64,000 nucleotides of DNA, taken from Zymoseptoria tritici IPO323 (Eukaryota > Ascomycota > Dothideomycetes > Mycosphaerellales > Mycosphaerellaceae). Below are positions 1 through 16,850 of the stretch, in pieces. How positions within the stretch are numbered: the stretch's first letter is position 1; each line of letters starts with the position of its first letter. The position numbers and the translations under genes were made by a program. The notes beneath the pieces are model-generated. The model was not told where the DNA came from. It saw only the letters and a list, made by a program, of their open reading frames with translations, and ran no database searches. The stretch lies in contig NC_018218.1 in NCBI RefSeq assembly GCF_000219625.1, positions 496,001 to 560,000 of the forward strand. Reading direction: 5' to 3'.

Positions 1-1541
1 GGGAGGAAGAGATCTGTGTGTCAACAAAGTATCAAGGCAACGGTCAGATTGTCTGCGTGGCGGATACGGGCATCGATGAGGGGTTCGTAGCGGGAGCCGA
101 GGATGGGATTCTGCATCCTGCGTTCAAGGGTCGGATCGAGCAAGTCCTCGATCTGTGGGATGAAGATAATGGGAGAGATCACATCGGCCATGGAACGCAT
201 GTCTGCGGTTCGATCGTGGGGAGTGGCATGTGCATCGATCCGGAGTCTGGCAAGGAGGTGGTCGTGCGAGGAACGGCTCCTGGAGCGAGATTGATCGTCC
301 AATCGATGCTGAATTGGAACACGAATCTCAAAGAGTACATCCTCAAACAGCCCCTGGACTTGCGGAAGCTGTGGTCGGCACCGTACGCTCTCGGCGCGAG
401 AATCCACAGTAATTCGTGGGGCGATAAGTGGAAGCAGACGCAGCTCGGATATGAGAGCGATGCCACGACTATCGACTCGTTTGTGCATGGGAATCCGGAC
501 TTTACCATTTTGATCGCTGCCGGGAATGATGCTAATAAGGGCAAAGTCCCAGTCGCTCAGATTGGAGACAACTCCGCAGCGAAGAATTGCATTACCGTTG
601 GCGCTACGGGGTCCACGCGCGCGAATGATGGCCAGAAGTTCTTTCGTGGGAAGCTGGCCACGACGATTGCTCAGACAGCGGCATTTAGCAGTCGGGGTCC
701 GACGCTCAGTAATAAGAACGCTCAAGACCAGGATGTTGTCGGTCGCATCAAACCTGATGTCGTAGCGCCTGGAGTCGCGGTCTTGTCCCCGGCAGCGAAG
801 GGCTTGGATCTCTTCACCCGACTTGACATTGAGAAGAAGTGCGGGAAGAGTGGAGATCTGAACTGGTTGTTCATGTCGGGCACAAGTATGGCTACACCGC
901 TGGTGGCCGGGTGTGTGGCGCTGCTAAGGGAGGCGTTGGGCATAAGGGGAAAGACGCATCCTAGCGCCGCGTTGATCAAGGCACTGTTGATCAACGGGGC
1001 GGTGAATCATTCGGCGCCGGCAGGTCAGGTGTTTGACTACGCTCAGGGATTTGGGAGGGTCGACGTTCAGCGGTCGCTTGAGATGATCGAGGGCACGAAT
1101 CCGCTGTGTGGATTTGTTGATGGCGGAAACCCTTTTGAGGCGACGAAGTTTGATGTACCGGCCTTACGCAAGGAGATTGGCAATAGCTGGGAAAGTGTCG
1201 AGATTGCTATCCCAAAGGGTCAGAATAAGATCGTGGTCACGCTGGCTTACACAGATGCTCCGGGCACACTTCTGCAGAACGCCATCAATCTGATCGTGCA
1301 GGCCGGTGGTCAAGAGCGGCACGGAAATATGGGAGACGGTCCTGGATTTGATAGCACGAGTGAGTGTCGCAAGGCGATAACATTCCGATCATGCATTCGC
1401 TAACTTGTTCTTTTAGACAATGTCGAGAAGGTCATTTGGGAGAACGTGCAAAGTGCGACAATGAGGACCGTTGTGCGATGCAATGGCTTCACGAAAGACT
1501 TGACTTCTGCGTTCGCCGTGGCTTGGAGGGTGGAGGTCTAG
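1..1541 (+). CDS. Subtilisin-like serine protease (S8 family), 5' end missing
   Basis: Serine endopeptidase of the S8 family. The reading frame is open to the window edge and no ATG precedes the catalytic domain, so the start and any signal or pro-region lie upstream. The triad is visible: Asp in ADTGID (codon 63-65), His in GHGTH (189-191) and Ser in GTSMATP (885-887). After the catalytic domain comes a beta-rich C-terminal domain (about 1140-1541), as in Kp43-like subtilases. An intron of 57 bp (1360-1416, GTGAGT..TTTTAG, with a GCTAAC branch-like site) is needed: joining gives STNNVEKVIWENV and a stop at 1539-1541, while read-through gives a poor tail. The protease call is firm. Localisation cannot be judged without the N-terminus. 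Confidence 0.92.
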
Positions 1542-4542: not shown

Positions 4543-6588
4543 ATGTCTTCCATTCCCACCAAGATCAAGGACGCGCTTCCCACACACCTGAAGCCAGGCA
4601 ATGGCGCCGAGGGTGACCGTCACCACGGAAAGTCGCAGTCGCATGTGGTAAGTTGAGCTTGATTTTCTTCGTCTTCGCGTTCGTGATACCGTATGGCCGC
4701 GGCAGCAGCATTCAATAGGAGGAGGATCATGGTGAACAATGGACAATGGTGCAATACACACTTCTTGGAGTGGTTGATGTGATGAGACGGACAACCTGAG
4801 CATGCCCACCCGTGGCAAGGTTCAGGCAGGCCTGTTCGGCGGCGGCCGGAAGTGTGTTCTCGAAGACTCGAGCATGCGCATGGTATACGGGCGGCATGCA
4901 GAGCAGCGTGCACCGGCAGCAACCTACTGCGAACAGTCGGCACCGACAGACACGGCACAATGCTGCACACTCGAGGAGTTTCGGCTTCGCGCATTACCAC
5001 CAGCCTCAAGGCGCGACACCATCACCAAGGCATGTTGGAGACCCAGTATGACTGACCGAGAATATGTATAGGCTTTCGAGAACACATCCACATCCGTTGC
5101 GGCTTCGCAGATGCGCAATGCCCTCAACAACCTCTCAGATGGCGTTAAGGACCCAGCTCTCAAGAAGGTCAGTCTTGAAGTCACACCCTACGCACTCCCT
5201 CACACTCACAATCCTTCCAGCGCTTCGAGACGGAAATGGACAACTTCTTCGCCCTCTTCCGCCGCTACCTCAACGACAAGGCCAAGGGCAACGAGATTGA
5301 CTGGAACCGCATCTCCCCACCAAAGCCTGAGCAGGTCGTCGACTACAACAGCCTAGGCAACTCCGAGTCGGTCGACTTCCTCGGCAAGCTCGCCGTTCTC
5401 AAGCTCAACGGTGGTCTCGGTACCTCCATGGGCTGCGTCGGTCCCAAGTCTGTCATTGAGGTCCGCGACGGCATGTCTTTCCTCGATCTCTCCGTCCGCC
5501 AGATTGAGCACCTCAACCGCACATACGACGTCAACGTCCCATTCGTCCTCATGAACTCGTTCAACACCGACGCCGACACCGCAAGCATCATCAAGAAGTA
5601 CGAGGGTCACAACATTGACATCCTCACCTTCAACCAATCCCGCTACCCACGTATCCTCAAGGACTCGCTCCTTCCCGCACCAAAGTCCGCCGACTCGCAA
5701 ATCTCCGACTGGTACCCACCAGGCCACGGTGACGTTTTCGAGTCGCTCTACAACTCTGGCATCCTCGACAAACTCATCGACCGCGGTGTTGAGATTCTCT
5801 TCCTCTCCAACGCCGACAACCTCGGCGCCGTGGTTGACCTCAACATCCTCCAGCACATGGTCGAGACAAAAGCAGAGTACATCATGGAGTTGACAGACAA
5901 GACCAAGGCTGATGTCAAGGGTGGCACCATCATCGACTACGAGGGTCAGGCTCGTCTGTTGGAGATTGCTCAAGTCCCCAAGCAATACACCAACGAGTTC
6001 AAGAGCATCAAGAAGTTCAAGTACTTCAACACCAACAACATCTGGATGAACCTCCGCGCGGTCAAGCGCATCGTCGAGAACAACGAGCTCGCCATGGAGA
6101 TCATCCCCAACGGCAAGACTATCCCCGCCGACAAGAAGGGTGAGGCCGACGTCAACATCATCCAACTCGAGACCGCCGTCGGTGCCGCGATCCGTCACTT
6201 CCACAACGCTCACGGCGTGAACGTGCCTCGTCGCCGTTTCTTGCCAGTCAAGACCTGCTCCGATCTCATGCTCGTCAAGTCGGACCTTTACACGCTCAAG
6301 CACGGCCAGCTCGTGATGGACCCCAACCGTTTCGGCCCTGCTCCTCTCATCAAGCTCGGCAACGACTTCAAGAAGGTGTCCAACTTCCAGAGCCGCATCC
6401 CTTCCATTCCCAAGATCCTCGAGCTTGATCATCTCACCATCACCGGAGGTGTGAACCTCGGCCGTGGTGTCGTGCTCAAGGGTACCGTCATCATCGTCGC
6501 GACCGAGGGCTCGACGATCGACATTCCTCCGGGTTCCGTGCTCGAGAACGTGGTGGTGCAGGGTAGCTTGAGACTGCTCGAGCACTAG
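4543..6588 (+). CDS. UGP1: UTP-glucose-1-phosphate uridylyltransferase
   Basis: Makes UDP-glucose from UTP and glucose-1-phosphate in the cytosol, feeding glucan, glycogen, trehalose and glycoprotein synthesis. Three exons: 4543-4647, 5072-5167 and 5221-6588, all phase 0. Protein about 522 residues, the usual fungal length. The N-terminal exon gives [16 protein letters not shown]. The nucleotide-binding loop [12 protein letters not shown] lies near residues 126-137. Other conserved stretches are [18 protein letters not shown] and the KTCSDLM region. The C-terminus (from about [11 protein letters not shown]) has the hydrophobic pattern of a left-handed beta-helix. Intron 1 is 424 bp, far longer than the other introns in the window, and may carry regulatory sequence. 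Codons are strongly C-ending, in line with high expression. Confidence 0.97.
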
Positions 6589-7131: not shown

Positions 7132-8938
7132 ATGAGCGCAGACGCACTCAAGGCAGAGGGCAATGCTCTGTTTGCCGCCAAAGACTTCACTGGAGCTGCG
7201 TAAGTTTTGAATCAGACTACAACCTACCACAGCATACTAACAACTCAACAGCGAGAAGTTCTCCGCAGCCATCGCCGCCGATCCGACCAACCACGTCCTC
7301 TATTCCAACCTCTCCGGCGCATATGCCTCGCTCAAACAATGGGATAAAGCTCTCGAAGCTGCTACCAAGACGACAGAGCTGAAGGAAGACTGGTCAAAAG
7401 GATGGGGACGAAAGGGAACAGCTCTTCACGGCACTGGCGACTTGATCGGAGCTGTGCAAGCATTTGAAGAGGCGCTTAAGTTGGACGCAAACAACGCACA
7501 AGCCAAAAATGGTCTCGCAGCAGTCAACCGCGTGATCGAAGATGAGGCTCGCGCAGATGGTGTCGATCCGAGTGGTGGACTGGGCAACATGTTCAATGAC
7601 CCACAGTTGTATCAGAAGCTGGCTGCGAACCCGAAGACAAGCGGACTGCTGGCGGACACGGCATTTATGGCGAAGTTGAACAACATGAAGAGCAATCCAC
7701 AAGGAATGCAGCAGGAGATGTTCTCAGACCCGCGATTCTTGCAGGTGATGAGCGTGTTGTTGGGCGTGGACATGAGCTTCAACCCCACGGACGACGCGGA
7801 TGCCGCGGCGAAGAAGTTCCAGGCTGAGCACGAAGATGGACAAGATGTGCCAATGCCTGATGCGAGACCGCAGAAGAAGGAGGAGCAGCCGAAGAAGGCG
7901 CCTGAACCTGAACCTGAACCCGAAGATGAAGAGGCGATTGCGAAGAAGCAGGCAAAGGAGGCTGCTGATAAGGAGAAGGCGCTGGGAACGGAGAACTACA
8001 AGAAGCGCAACTTCGATGAGGCCATTGCACACTACACGAAAGCCTGGGAGACACACAAGGACATCACCTACCTCACCAACCTCTCCGCTGCACACTTCGA
8101 GAAGGGCGACTACCAGTCCTGTATCGATGCATGCAAACAAGCCATCGAGTACGGTCGTGAGGTCCTCGCCGACTTCAAGCTCATCGCCAAAGCCTTCGGC
8201 CGCATGGGCAGCGCATACGAGAAGCTCGGCGACTACACCAACGCCATCGACAACTACCAGCGCTCTCTCACCGAGCACCGCACACCCGACATCCTCGCCA
8301 AGCTCCGCGCCGCCGAGAAGAGCAAGATCACCACCGAGCGCGACGCCTACATCGACCCCGCCAAAGCCGAAGAAGCCCGCGAACTCGGCAACCAGAAATT
8401 CAAAGACCTCGACTGGCCAGGTGCAGTAGAAGCCTACACCGAAATGACCAAACGCGCGCCCGACGATCCGCGCGGCTACTCCAACCGCGCCGCCTGCCTC
8501 ATCAAACTCCTCACCCTCCCCTCCGCCGTCGCCGACTGCGACGAAGCCCTCAAGCGCGACCCAACTTTCATCCGCGCCTACCTCCGCAAAGCCCAAGCCC
8601 TCTTCGCGATGAAGGAGTACAACAAATGTCTCGACGTGTGCGCCGAGGCGTCCACCCACGACAAAGACGGCAAGAACGCGCGGGAGATTGAGCAGCAGAG
8701 TCAGAAGGCGTTGCAGGCGCAATTCGCCGCGCGGGAGGGCGAGACGGAGGAGGAGGCGCAGCAGCGCATCCAGCGAGATCCGGATATCATGGCGATTTTG
8801 CAGGATCCTATTATGCAGAGTATTTTGCAGCAGGCGAAGGGGGATCCCGCGGCGTTGCAGGAGCATATGCGCAATCCTGGGATTGCGATGAAGGTGCAGA
8901 AGTTGATTGCTGCTGGAGTGATTCGTATGGGGAGGTAG
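7132..8938 (+). CDS. STI1: Hsp90/Hsp70 co-chaperone STI1 (HOP)
   Basis: Adaptor that hands clients from Hsp70 to Hsp90 in the cytosol. Exons 7132-7199 and 7252-8938 are joined over a 52 bp intron (GTAAGT..ACAG), giving about 584 residues against 589 in yeast. Layout: TPR1 at about 1-115 (ALKAEGNALFAAKDFTGAAEKF), a DP1 region near 130-200 (LGNMFNDPQLYQKL), a charged linker rich in Glu, Lys and Pro, TPR2A near 260-380 (KALGTENYKKRNFDEAIAHY), TPR2B near 395-510 (ARELGNQKFKDLDWPGAVEA) and the DP2 domain at the end (RDPDIMAILQDPIMQSILQQ). The start is fixed by the TPR1 helix read across the intron. Confidence 0.97.
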
Positions 8939-13646: not shown

Positions 13647-16600
13647 ATGTTCTCTCCTCTCGTCGTCGCCTCTCTGGCGATGCTGACCCTCGCCGTTGGT
13701 CCCCAGATCGATGGCTACACTCGCAGCGACCCAGGCACTTCCGCCATCTCGGTCCCGGTCAAGGACGGCTGCTCGACCTTCATCTCGCACTCCGTCTACG
13801 AGGGAACTACCCTTGATGCGGCTCGCTGTACAGCTGAGTGTGATGACTCCTGCGACGATTGCCACTTTGTCAACACCTGGATGGAACTCAAGGATGGCCA
13901 GCCGACCCGCCAGATCTGCGCCTTGTACACTACTTCCTACACCGACGCTGATGCCACCTCCAAGAGCTACACCCGTCCTTCCGACAGCACGGTCGTGACG
14001 GTGGGATCAAGTGCATGTTACTCAAAGACGGATGCACCATCGTTGTCGACAGCAAGTGCGTTGTCGACAGCAAGTGCGTTGTCGACAGCAAGTGCGTTGT
14101 CGACGGCCCAAGGCCATACCCACCTGCCGTCAAGTCATGCCCCGTCAAGAATGGCCAGGGCAGTGGTTCATCTTCTGGTTCAAGCAGCGGTGCCAGCGGC
14201 TCCGCTTCTGGCTCAAACAATGCTAGCAGCGGCTCCGCCTCTGGCTCAAGCAACAATGGTAGCGGCTCCGCCTCTGGTTCAAGCAACAATGATAGCGGCT
14301 CCGCCTCTGGTTCAAGCAACAATAATAGCGGCTCCGCCTCTGGTTCAAGCAACAATGGTAGCGGATCCGCCTCTGGTTCAAGCGATGGCGCGAGCGGTGT
14401 CTCCTCCCCGGACGCTTACACCACCGAGGTCGTCGATCAGTTCACTACCTACTTTCCCTCTCCCACAACTATCACCTACGGGCCAAGCCAGACCTACGTC
14501 GTGACCGAAGCCGGCTCCGTCACGATCACCGACTGTCCTTGTACCATCACTAAGCCAGTCTCCAACGGAGGTGCAGCTCCAACCTACGGCAGCGGCTCTG
14601 GCAACGATGGTGCTCCGTCTTACGGCGGAAACGGCGGCTCTGGGTCTGATGGCGGGTCACCACCTTACTACGGGGGAGGCGGTGATGACCCCAACGGCGA
14701 AGACGGCGATCCCACCGTGACCGATGGCCCGACTGCGACCGGCACTGATTCGACTGCGACCGGCACTTCGACCACGGCCACTGATGATCCAAACGATGGC
14801 GGTGACGGCGACCCGACCGACGACACCTCATCCACCACCACCGGAACTGCTACCGGAACCGCTTCTACTACCACTGACACTGCTTCATCTGCCACTGCTT
14901 CATCTGCCACTGCTTCATCCGCCACTGCTTCATCCGCCACTGCTTCATCTGCCACTGCTTCATCTACCACGGTTAGCGGTGAACCCGACCCGAACACCAC
15001 CACGACTGCTACTATCACGACCACTGACGGCACTTCGTCTACTACCACGTCCAGTAGCGCTACTTCAACACCATCGGACTGTGTTCAGGCTGGTGGAACC
15101 TGCTCCGGCCTGCTGGGCTCTAACGGGTTGCTGCTATCGGATGATTGCTGCGATGGATCCAGCTGTTTCCCAACCCTCGACATCAACGCTCGGTCCTTGA
15201 AAGGCGGCTCGCTCCTCAGACGTCAGACTCTACTTGGAACTTGCTCGGGCGGAAACCCCGACGACGGCACCTGTAATGCTGCGGGCGATGCATGTGATGC
15301 TACGGGTGTCCTCGGCCTCGATCCATGCTGCGCGGGAACGACCTGTACTACTCTCGGACTCACCCTTAACGGCTTGGCTGTGCAAGTCGACCAGTGTGTA
15401 GCCGATGAACCGGTGACCGGCCCATTCAACTGCGCGACCGATGAATCGGAGCAATGCTGTACCGCGAGCGCAGCCAATGCGCTTCAATTACTCTGTACTG
15501 CTCGTAAGTTTCACCGCACTAGTCCATCGACCCATCGAAAATGGCGATGCTAATTCATTGCCCTCCCAGCATCCTCCACTGACATCAGCTCTTGTGGTAC
15601 CCAACCCGCGTACTGCTGTCCCAACGACGGCGTTCTCAACGTTCTCGTAAGTTTACCTCATTCACCGATCGTACTCGCATCAAAGGATCCATGCTGACCA
15701 ACTTGCTTGTAGAATGGAGTAGTCTACACTGGCTGTCAAGCTGCGCCTGGCGACGGTGGGGACGGCAGCGACAGCAACGGCGCGAACGGCGACGTGACCT
15801 TCACATGCGCAAATGGCGAAGCCAGATGCTGCACTGACGCCGATGGCCTTGGCCTCAATCTCCTGTGCACAGGGCGTAAGTTCCGCACTCTTTCCCCAGC
15901 CTCGCATGTTCTCTCAATAGTCCTGATGCTGATCTATCTTCCAGTCGAGGTTGACGGCACATGTTCGGCTGATCAAACTCCGAGATGCTGTGATGGAGAC
16001 CAAACACTCGTAAGTCATTCTCGCATGCCTCTCAAACGTGTGAATGCTGATCAACTGGCTTTTCAGGGCGCGGTGCTAGCTTTGAACTGCGCAGCCCCAG
16101 CAACCACTACTCCCGTTGAAGGTGGTGGAGGTAATAGCCCAACGACCTTCGCTTGCGCAGCCAACTACGACCCTACATGCTGTCCTGCGACCGCCATTAC
16201 CGGTGGTCTCGGGGTCGGTGCTGCCTGCCAGGATCGTAAGTACTGCCCGGCCTTGTCGCCGCTTCATCCCTGAGCGCCGAATGTAACAACGCTGACCTTA
16301 TTCCTGCTCTAGCTACGAACTCTGCGTGTGCAAACACGCTCCTCGCCGAGCCATTATGTTGCCCGACAGGCCTCCTCGTGAGTCCATCCAGCTCAAGTTC
16401 CTCGGCGAATCTGCGTATCTCTAGTGCTGACCAGCTTGCTTCGCAGGACCCGCTGCTTGCCTCCCAATGCTTCGCTCCTGGTAGCGAACCTGGCGTAATT
16501 GCGACATCTTTTGGTTGCACAGGTGCCGACACACGTCAATGCTGCCCTGTCGGCGATGTCTCCGAACTTGGTGCACTCTGCACTGAAGGTCAGCCTATGC

Positions 16601-16850
16601 GCTCTTATTTTCCTTCATGCATTAAAGCAACAATGCTGACTCAATTCCGTCTTAGCCACGACCGACGACACTGCCACATGTGAAAGTCTGCTTGGCGGCA
16701 GCTCTGCGTACTGCTGCTCTGGCAGCGTCCTGGGCCTCGTAAGTCGTTATTCGACCTGCTCGAGCCCCTCGTAGTCGATCTTCAATGCTGATGATTCCAT
16801 AGGGTCAAGTGCTCTCAACTGGCTGCGACCCTGCAGGTATAGTCGTATAA
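13647..16850 (+). CDS. Secreted mosaic protein with four tandem hydrophobin-like modules
   Basis: N-terminus MFSPLVVASLAMLTLAV is a signal peptide, followed by a cysteine-rich domain, a Ser/Gly repeat region, a Thr/Ser-rich linker, two six-Cys modules (C-C-CC-C-C; about 15078-15400) and four eight-Cys modules in hydrophobin order. Nine exons from 14015 on: to 15503, 15570-15646, 15713-15875, 15945-16009, 16067-16235, 16313-16377, 16447-16588, 16656-16738 and 16803-16850. The last module ends VLGLGQVLSTGC, like a hydrophobin tail. Multi-hydrophobins are known in Claviceps. A cell-wall or surface role is inferred. Odd point: 13647-14000 reads in one frame and the Ser/Gly part in another, with no convincing intron between (see findings). 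The N-terminal exon could instead belong to a separate or broken gene. Confidence 0.68.
14042..14104 (+). repeat. 18 bp tandem repeat, 3.5 copies
   Basis: GTTGTCGACAGCAAGTGC is repeated exactly at 14042, 14060 and 14078, followed by a half copy. It reads SKCVVD in the frame of the downstream Ser/Gly region and TASALS in the frame of the signal-peptide exon. It sits where the gene changes frame. Confidence 0.95.
14228..14392 (+). repeat. 33 bp coding minisatellite, 5 copies
   Basis: Five units of 33 bp encode SGSASGSSNN plus one variable residue, making a flexible Ser/Gly/Asn linker in the secreted protein. A shorter diverged unit precedes them. The unit is a multiple of three, so copy number can vary without breaking the frame. 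Confidence 0.95.
14881..14970 (+). repeat. 15 bp coding minisatellite, 6 copies
   Basis: Six near-identical units of TGCTTCATCTGCCAC encode a Thr/Ala/Ser pentapeptide repeat, a likely O-glycosylated linker before the cysteine-rich modules. Confidence 0.95.

Follow-up and report, generated by a model that had tools for sequence, protein, structure and literature searches.

A predicted secreted protein of Zymoseptoria tritici that ends in four hydrophobin-like modules with introns at class II hydrophobin positions

The window analysed here is a 64,000-nucleotide stretch of the genome of Zymoseptoria tritici IPO323, a leaf-blotch fungus of wheat (NC_018218.1, positions 496001-560000). It contains a gene at 13647..16850 on the forward strand whose product ends in four consecutive modules, each carrying eight cysteines (Cys) in the hydrophobin order C-CC-C-C-CC-C. 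The gene has 10 exons and encodes 858 residues with 54 cysteines, and its spliced translation is free of internal stops. The original prediction had seen the modules, within one secreted protein, at 15427..16850; this span covers the modules, but the gene itself is 13647-16850. We think it probable that the product is a secreted chimeric multi-domain hydrophobin, in which a mucin-like surface protein with an apple domain gained its C-terminal array through tandem duplication of a class II-type hydrophobin coding block together with its introns, the four copies then diverging. From the sequence, a single chain with four units appears to be present, and the hydrophobin nature of each unit would rest on gene structure.

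The modules, M1 to M4, all lie on the forward strand. M1 (15431..15736) has the spacing C7CC11C10C6CC16C and introns at 15504-15569 (phase 1) and 15647-15712 (phase 0); M2 (15806..16090) has the spacing C6CC11C8C7CC13C and introns at 15876-15944 (phase 1) and 16010-16066 (phase 0). M3 (16154..16470) follows with C7CC14C7C9CC12C and introns at 16236-16312 (phase 1) and 16378-16446 (phase 0), and M4 (16516..16826) with C7CC11C10C10CC14C and introns at 16589-16655 (phase 1, with a GTCAGC donor) and 16739-16802 (phase 0). Every one of these cysteine gaps falls inside the ranges that had been predicted, and the claim of four consecutive eight-cysteine modules after splicing is borne out by a spliced frame that is open across the module borders and ends at the stop at 16850. 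Each module consists of two C-CC-C halves, a and b, and the array can be read either as four a-b units or as three b-a units with an orphan half at each end. The 412-residue C-terminus holds eight such half-motifs; among 20,000 shuffles of it, two tandem half-motifs arose in 28 and four or eight in none. The grand average of hydropathy is 0.12-0.47 for the modules and -0.02 to 0.60 for the six class II hydrophobin modules of the same genome, so the modules have a hydrophobic cysteine core. The array is acidic (no lysine, 3 arginines and 31 aspartates or glutamates in 297 residues) and free of tryptophan. M1-M3 are 28-37% identical to M4. Some fifth cysteines are out of register in the module alignments.

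Gene structure is the strongest evidence for the hydrophobin reading. In all four modules, one intron, of phase 1, falls exactly two residues past Cys4, and the other, of phase 0, exactly seven residues ahead of Cys8. The comparison set consists of six class II hydrophobin genes, spliced after a PF06766 (Hydrophobin_2) search of the genome (39,686,251 bases, 21 contigs); this search gave nine exon-level matches, eight of them above the cut-off, the ninth belonging to the gene C2b described below. Five of the six genes have a first intron of phase 1 two residues past Cys4, the C4 gene being without it, and all six have a second intron of phase 0 six residues ahead of Cys8. Taken as a pair, a phase-1 intron past Cys4 and a phase-0 intron between Cys7 and Cys8 occur in every module of the array, the second displaced by one residue. 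The end of the gene is also similar: 7 residues follow the last cysteine of M4 before the stop, which in five of the six class II genes comes 3-7 residues past Cys8, while C2b continues. In three Trichoderma/Hypocrea species, class II genes are described as having two positionally conserved introns, exon 2 coding for the helix and the third strand (PMC2253510).

The simplest account of module introns at class II positions is descent by tandem duplication of DNA that included the introns. Intron sequence similarity adds little to the case for duplication. The phase-0 introns of M1-M3 are mutually similar (pairwise z 3.5-4.6, 300 shuffles each) and that of M4 is dissimilar; other intron pairs reach z 4.0 and across-phase pairs 3.1, with means of 2.4 within and 1.8 between phases. 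The same three phase-0 introns (15647-15712, 16010-16066 and 16378-16446) have an alike tail past the branch-like site, which the phase-0 intron of M4 lacks. The genome also has two close class II paralogues with glycine/asparagine/serine-rich N-termini (L001, L007), of which the C4 one is without the first intron and the C11 one has it.

A second apple-hydrophobin chimera is present in the genome. C2b (L022:1634-2976, contig C2 around 3488133-3489475, with its Hydrophobin_2 match at C2:3488864) resembles the gene at 13647-16850 in its signal-peptide-like and apple-like start, its serine/threonine linker and a hydrophobin module with both introns. The apple-like start matches PAN_1 at E 0.77 only. 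Unlike the array, C2b has a single module, which Pfam recognises as class II (44.7 bits, cut-off 24; spacing C8CC9C15C8CC10C), and its chain continues past the module in a serine/threonine-rich stretch. An open frame at L022:3101-3550 may belong to it. C2b shows that the architecture occurs more than once in the genome, and it represents a plausible single-unit stage.

Could the four-unit chain be an artefact of annotation? The modules might be separate genes, or their introns might be kept in the messenger, so that they never form one protein. This is very improbable. Each of the eight module introns is bounded by GT..AG and contains a branch-like site, the spliced frame is without a stop between modules, and the deposited predictions from Z. 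tritici and Z. brevis share the spliced C-terminus. Seven of the eight donors are GTAAGT or GTGAGT; the remaining GTCAGC donor speaks for an artefact, as does intron 1 (14001..14092, forward strand, 92 nt, phase 0, as implied by the deposited protein P0001), which has no branch-site motif and contains most of an 18-bp minisatellite. This intron is the junction of lowest certainty in the gene. The frame shifts at the minisatellite, 14041-14104, where P0001 has the intron. For M. graminicola, a call to reassess the gene models of two or more hydrophobin-like proteins (listed sizes up to 463 and 816 residues, with 15 and 46 cysteines; PMC3517617) points in the same direction; the 816-residue, 46-cysteine protein could be an older model of the gene at 13647-16850.

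P0001, from Z. tritici ST99CH_1A5, is a deposited gene prediction that is unnamed in databases and has the UniRef label 'Apple domain-containing'. It is equal in length to the 858-residue product and differs from it by 4 substitutions. A partial hypothetical protein of Z. brevis (P0002) covers the C-terminus of 412 residues at equal length with 18 substitutions, and a third protein (P0003) is an unspliced reading of the same Zymoseptoria gene. The sequence and the deposited predictions thus uphold, at their own level, the original claim of several units fused in one chain behind an unusual N-terminus. Two protein database searches (E up to 0.01 and 1) matched Zymoseptoria proteins only, the first of them scoring just the 7,990 candidates that shared most words, so that distant relatives may be missed; a third (39 candidates, E up to 1) matched only P0003. 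Among viral contigs searched for an HFBII-like gene, none was confirmed.

Several results weigh against reading the modules as hydrophobins. The original prediction had looked to hydrophobin profiles for support, and this did not appear: none of the four modules in canonical register reaches the Pfam cut-off for PF01185 or PF06766. M2 scores 13 bits for PF01185 (cut-off 23), M3 10.8 for PF06766 (cut-off 24) and M1 nothing relevant, and P0001 and P0002 as whole proteins have no Pfam hydrophobin match over the cut-off. By contrast, the class II modules of the genome that were given to Pfam, four from the six genes, all pass, with 44.7-75.6 bits, and the PF06766 genome search did not list the gene at 13647-16850. 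A PF01185 search of the genome gave no match, a result that does not show absence. The spacings match neither published class. Against the class II consensus, C-(9-10)-CC-11-C-16-C-(6-9)-CC-10-C (PMC3032640), the CC-11-C gap agrees in three of four modules and the Cys5-Cys6 gap in three of four, and the Cys4-Cys5 gap is 7-10; against the class I consensus, C-(5-8)-CC-(17-39)-C-(8-23)-C-(5-6)-CC-(6-18)-C (PMC3032640), the CC-11..14-C gap is too short in all four. Two profile results speak for the hydrophobin reading. With a class II profile built from the six genome modules and HFBII, few Cys-preserving shuffles, 1, 7, 1 and 5 of 500, reached the scores of M1-M4; and weak class I matches, far below the cut-off, lie in canonical order, M2 b on the second half of PF01185 (E 0.17) and M3 a on the start of Eas (E 0.09). 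On the other side, the class II profile scores of M2 and M3 come from the b half on the first half of the profile and not from whole modules, and seven of the eight halves, a and b, fit the Cys1-4 half-profile better than the Cys5-8 half-profile. PDB searches with profiles from module alignments or from units in the alternative b-a register found nothing, and one with M4 gave chance-looking matches only. AlphaFold2, run on the Z. brevis protein with a two-sequence alignment, gave a mean predicted local distance difference test score (pLDDT) of 34.6, a model best taken as no evidence for or against a hydrophobin fold. The gene structure has its own weak points. The phase-0 intron lies seven, not six, residues ahead of Cys8. 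Moreover, not all hydrophobin genes have two introns: three class II genes of Clonostachys contain a single one each (PMC3922079), so the intron criterion is supportive, not strictly defining. The predicted hydrophobin identity is backed by intron positions common to the six class II genes and left without support by the profiles and the structure model.

Are the modules, then, hydrophobins at all? They might have another disulphide-rich fold, for example that of secreted proteins like DUF6413, and have come to the C-CC-C pattern by convergence. The failure of every module to pass a hydrophobin cut-off is in keeping with this, as is a structure model that leaves the fold unsettled, and M4 matches DUF6413 (PF19951) at E 0.00011, its second half alone at E 0.00074. 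However, the match of 23.3 bits is below the cut-off of 28.1 and to part of the profile, and it covers part of one module out of four; M1-M3 have no match. A DUF6413 search of the genome gave one sub-threshold match, unlike the modules, and likewise did not list the gene at 13647-16850, which marks the search as insensitive. We consider a non-hydrophobin fold unlikely, because all four modules have the intron positions of class II hydrophobins. A different question is which halves form a unit. In a shifted register, the b half of one module would pair with the a half of the next, making the array a circular permutation, or the halves could pair with either neighbour along the chain. The disulphides of hydrophobins, C1-C6, C2-C5, C3-C4 and C7-C8, form a pattern that half-module permutation does not alter. 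M3b+M4a matches Hydrophobin_2 over nearly its full length (E 0.0016, 18.8 bits, cut-off 24), as none of 10 Cys-preserving shuffles of it did, and HFBII in the PDB at E 0.028; the E of 0.0016 is nevertheless weak, because one of the 10 shuffles hit another cysteine-rich family by chance at E 0.0048. On the class II profile, the score of M2b+M3a was reached by none of 500 shuffles (z 5.4), that of M3b+M4a by 5 and that of M1b+M2a by 10, and two of the three shifted units outscore the modules themselves on class II profiles, a further point against the canonical reading. Likeness to the first halves of class II modules is seen in b2 (0 of 500 shuffles) and in b3 (5 of 500). Compared with HFBII alone, b3 is like its first half (0 of 500), and three of the four a halves are nearer to the second half than to the first (second-half score reached in 24, 98 and 19 of 500 shuffles). 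The spacings of the shifted units (6,16,23,6,11; 7,13,21,7,14; 9,12,15,7,11) are also nearer to the published classes.

Against this, half-profiles of seven class II modules give the contrary result to HFBII alone: three of the four a halves prefer the first half, and are thus unlike the class II second halves that a permutation needs. The eight halves divide evenly into four a-b pairs, whereas pairing as b-a yields only three and leaves an orphan at both ends. The introns contradict the shifted register: all six class II genes are free of introns between Cys3 and Cys4 and immediately past Cys8. Circular permutation, suggested by the HFBII and Hydrophobin_2 matches, was demoted to a rival by these genes, and the class II intron positions led us to take a-b as the module. 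We judge the shifted register distinctly unlikely. It is also conceivable, if hardly likely, that the array is no set of four closed hydrophobins but a circularly permuted or domain-swapped repeat whose half-barrels pair with either neighbour; the exon borders would then mark the former register, the sequence itself having drifted towards class II-like pairing across the module borders, and the product would be an intramolecular hydrophobin polymer.

Upstream of the array, the product has a signal-peptide-like N-terminus (MFSPLVVASLAMLTLAVG; 13647..13700, forward strand, as are the features that follow), judged from the sequence, and an apple/PAN-like cysteine domain (13764..13928), which takes its name from the UniRef name of P0001 and has no Pfam match. 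A glycine/serine/threonine/aspartate-rich linker follows (14093..15079), which, measured on P0001, is of 313 residues with 42% serine/threonine and 17% glycine. It contains coding minisatellites at 14174-14383 (33 bp) and 14874-14970 (15 bp). The linker of Z. brevis holds other repeats (DPNDGGDPT), so linker length probably varies. Between the linker and the array are two six-cysteine, knottin-like modules (C-C-CC-C-C) at 15080..15244 (C6C14CC4C25C) and 15272..15397 (C6C10CC4C16C), which have no Pfam match and only chance-looking matches in the PDB. The C-terminal 412 residues have one dibasic site, inside the first knottin-like module, and none from M1 on; with no such site between the modules, there is no sign of Kex2-type cleavage into monomers. 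Elsewhere in the window, neighbouring genes of housekeeping type encode a UTP-glucose-1-phosphate uridylyltransferase (5179-6585) and an STI1/HOP-like co-chaperone (7241-8935), both recognised by Pfam.

How might such a protein work? That each module keeps both introns of an ordinary hydrophobin gene suggests tandem duplication inside a larger surface-protein gene. In the chimeric hydrophobin proposed here, the modules would be read as canonical units, Cys1 to Cys8 in order, and each may fold as a four-disulphide hydrophobin barrel. The chain would be secreted and, judging from Kex2-type sites, kept whole. The serine/threonine-rich stretch could form a glycosylated stalk, and the apple-like and knottin-like modules could attach the chain to polysaccharides or proteins of the wall. 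Four linked acidic heads might then gather at a hydrophobic-hydrophilic interface with an avidity above that of a single unit. The protein may be a wall-associated coat or adhesion protein whose heads bind the interface cooperatively; its folding, glycosylation, anchoring and self-assembly are here predictions from sequence.

If this account is true, it places a multi-unit hydrophobin in the Dothideomycetes, outside the Cordycipitaceae and Clavicipitaceae, the only two families with multi-domain hydrophobins according to a 2021 survey (PMC7827705), to which PMC12375992 adds Fusarium, Trichoderma and Gibberella as holders. In the part of the literature looked at, we found no report of a multi-unit hydrophobin in Zymoseptoria, which is a weak negative. 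Because each unit keeps its own introns, the gene would also preserve a trail of how a multi-unit hydrophobin arises. It suggests that mucin-like surface proteins with an apple domain can carry hydrophobin heads, and that hydrophobin units missed by profile searches can be recognised from the positions of their introns. With its two possible registers, the array lends itself to a clean test of whether hydrophobin half-barrels have more than one mode of pairing.

Multi-domain hydrophobins with two to seven units are known, among them CmQHYD of Cordyceps militaris with four, CFTH1 of Claviceps fusiformis with three and CPPH1 of C. purpurea with five (PMC7827705; PMC12375992). The original prediction was fair in its comparison with Claviceps, although such proteins also occur in Cordyceps and others (PMC7827705). 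CPPH1 is reported to have no role in morphology, growth, sporulation, spore hydrophobicity or virulence (PMC7827705), and a strong phenotype is therefore not to be assumed for the Zymoseptoria protein. Single-unit intermediate hydrophobins of Aspergillus (An08g09880, AFLA_064900, AFLA_063080; spacings such as C7CC16C6C5CC10C, C7CC15C6C5CC8C and C5CC17C7C7CC12C; PMC3020181) have short Cys3-Cys4 and Cys4-Cys5 loops like those of M1-M4, although their Cys3-Cys4 loop is of 15-17 residues rather than 11-14 and the likeness noted is one of spacing. CmQHYD, CFTH1 and CPPH1 share with the Zymoseptoria protein several units per secreted chain and low-complexity spacers, CmQHYD also having four units. 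In these proteins the units are recognised as class II (in CmQHYD by Pfam), whereas the Zymoseptoria modules are below the Pfam cut-offs. The CmQHYD gene is intronless and its units are 60-81% identical (PMC7827705), while the Zymoseptoria modules, 28-37% identical to M4, have two introns each and stand behind apple-like and knottin-like modules.

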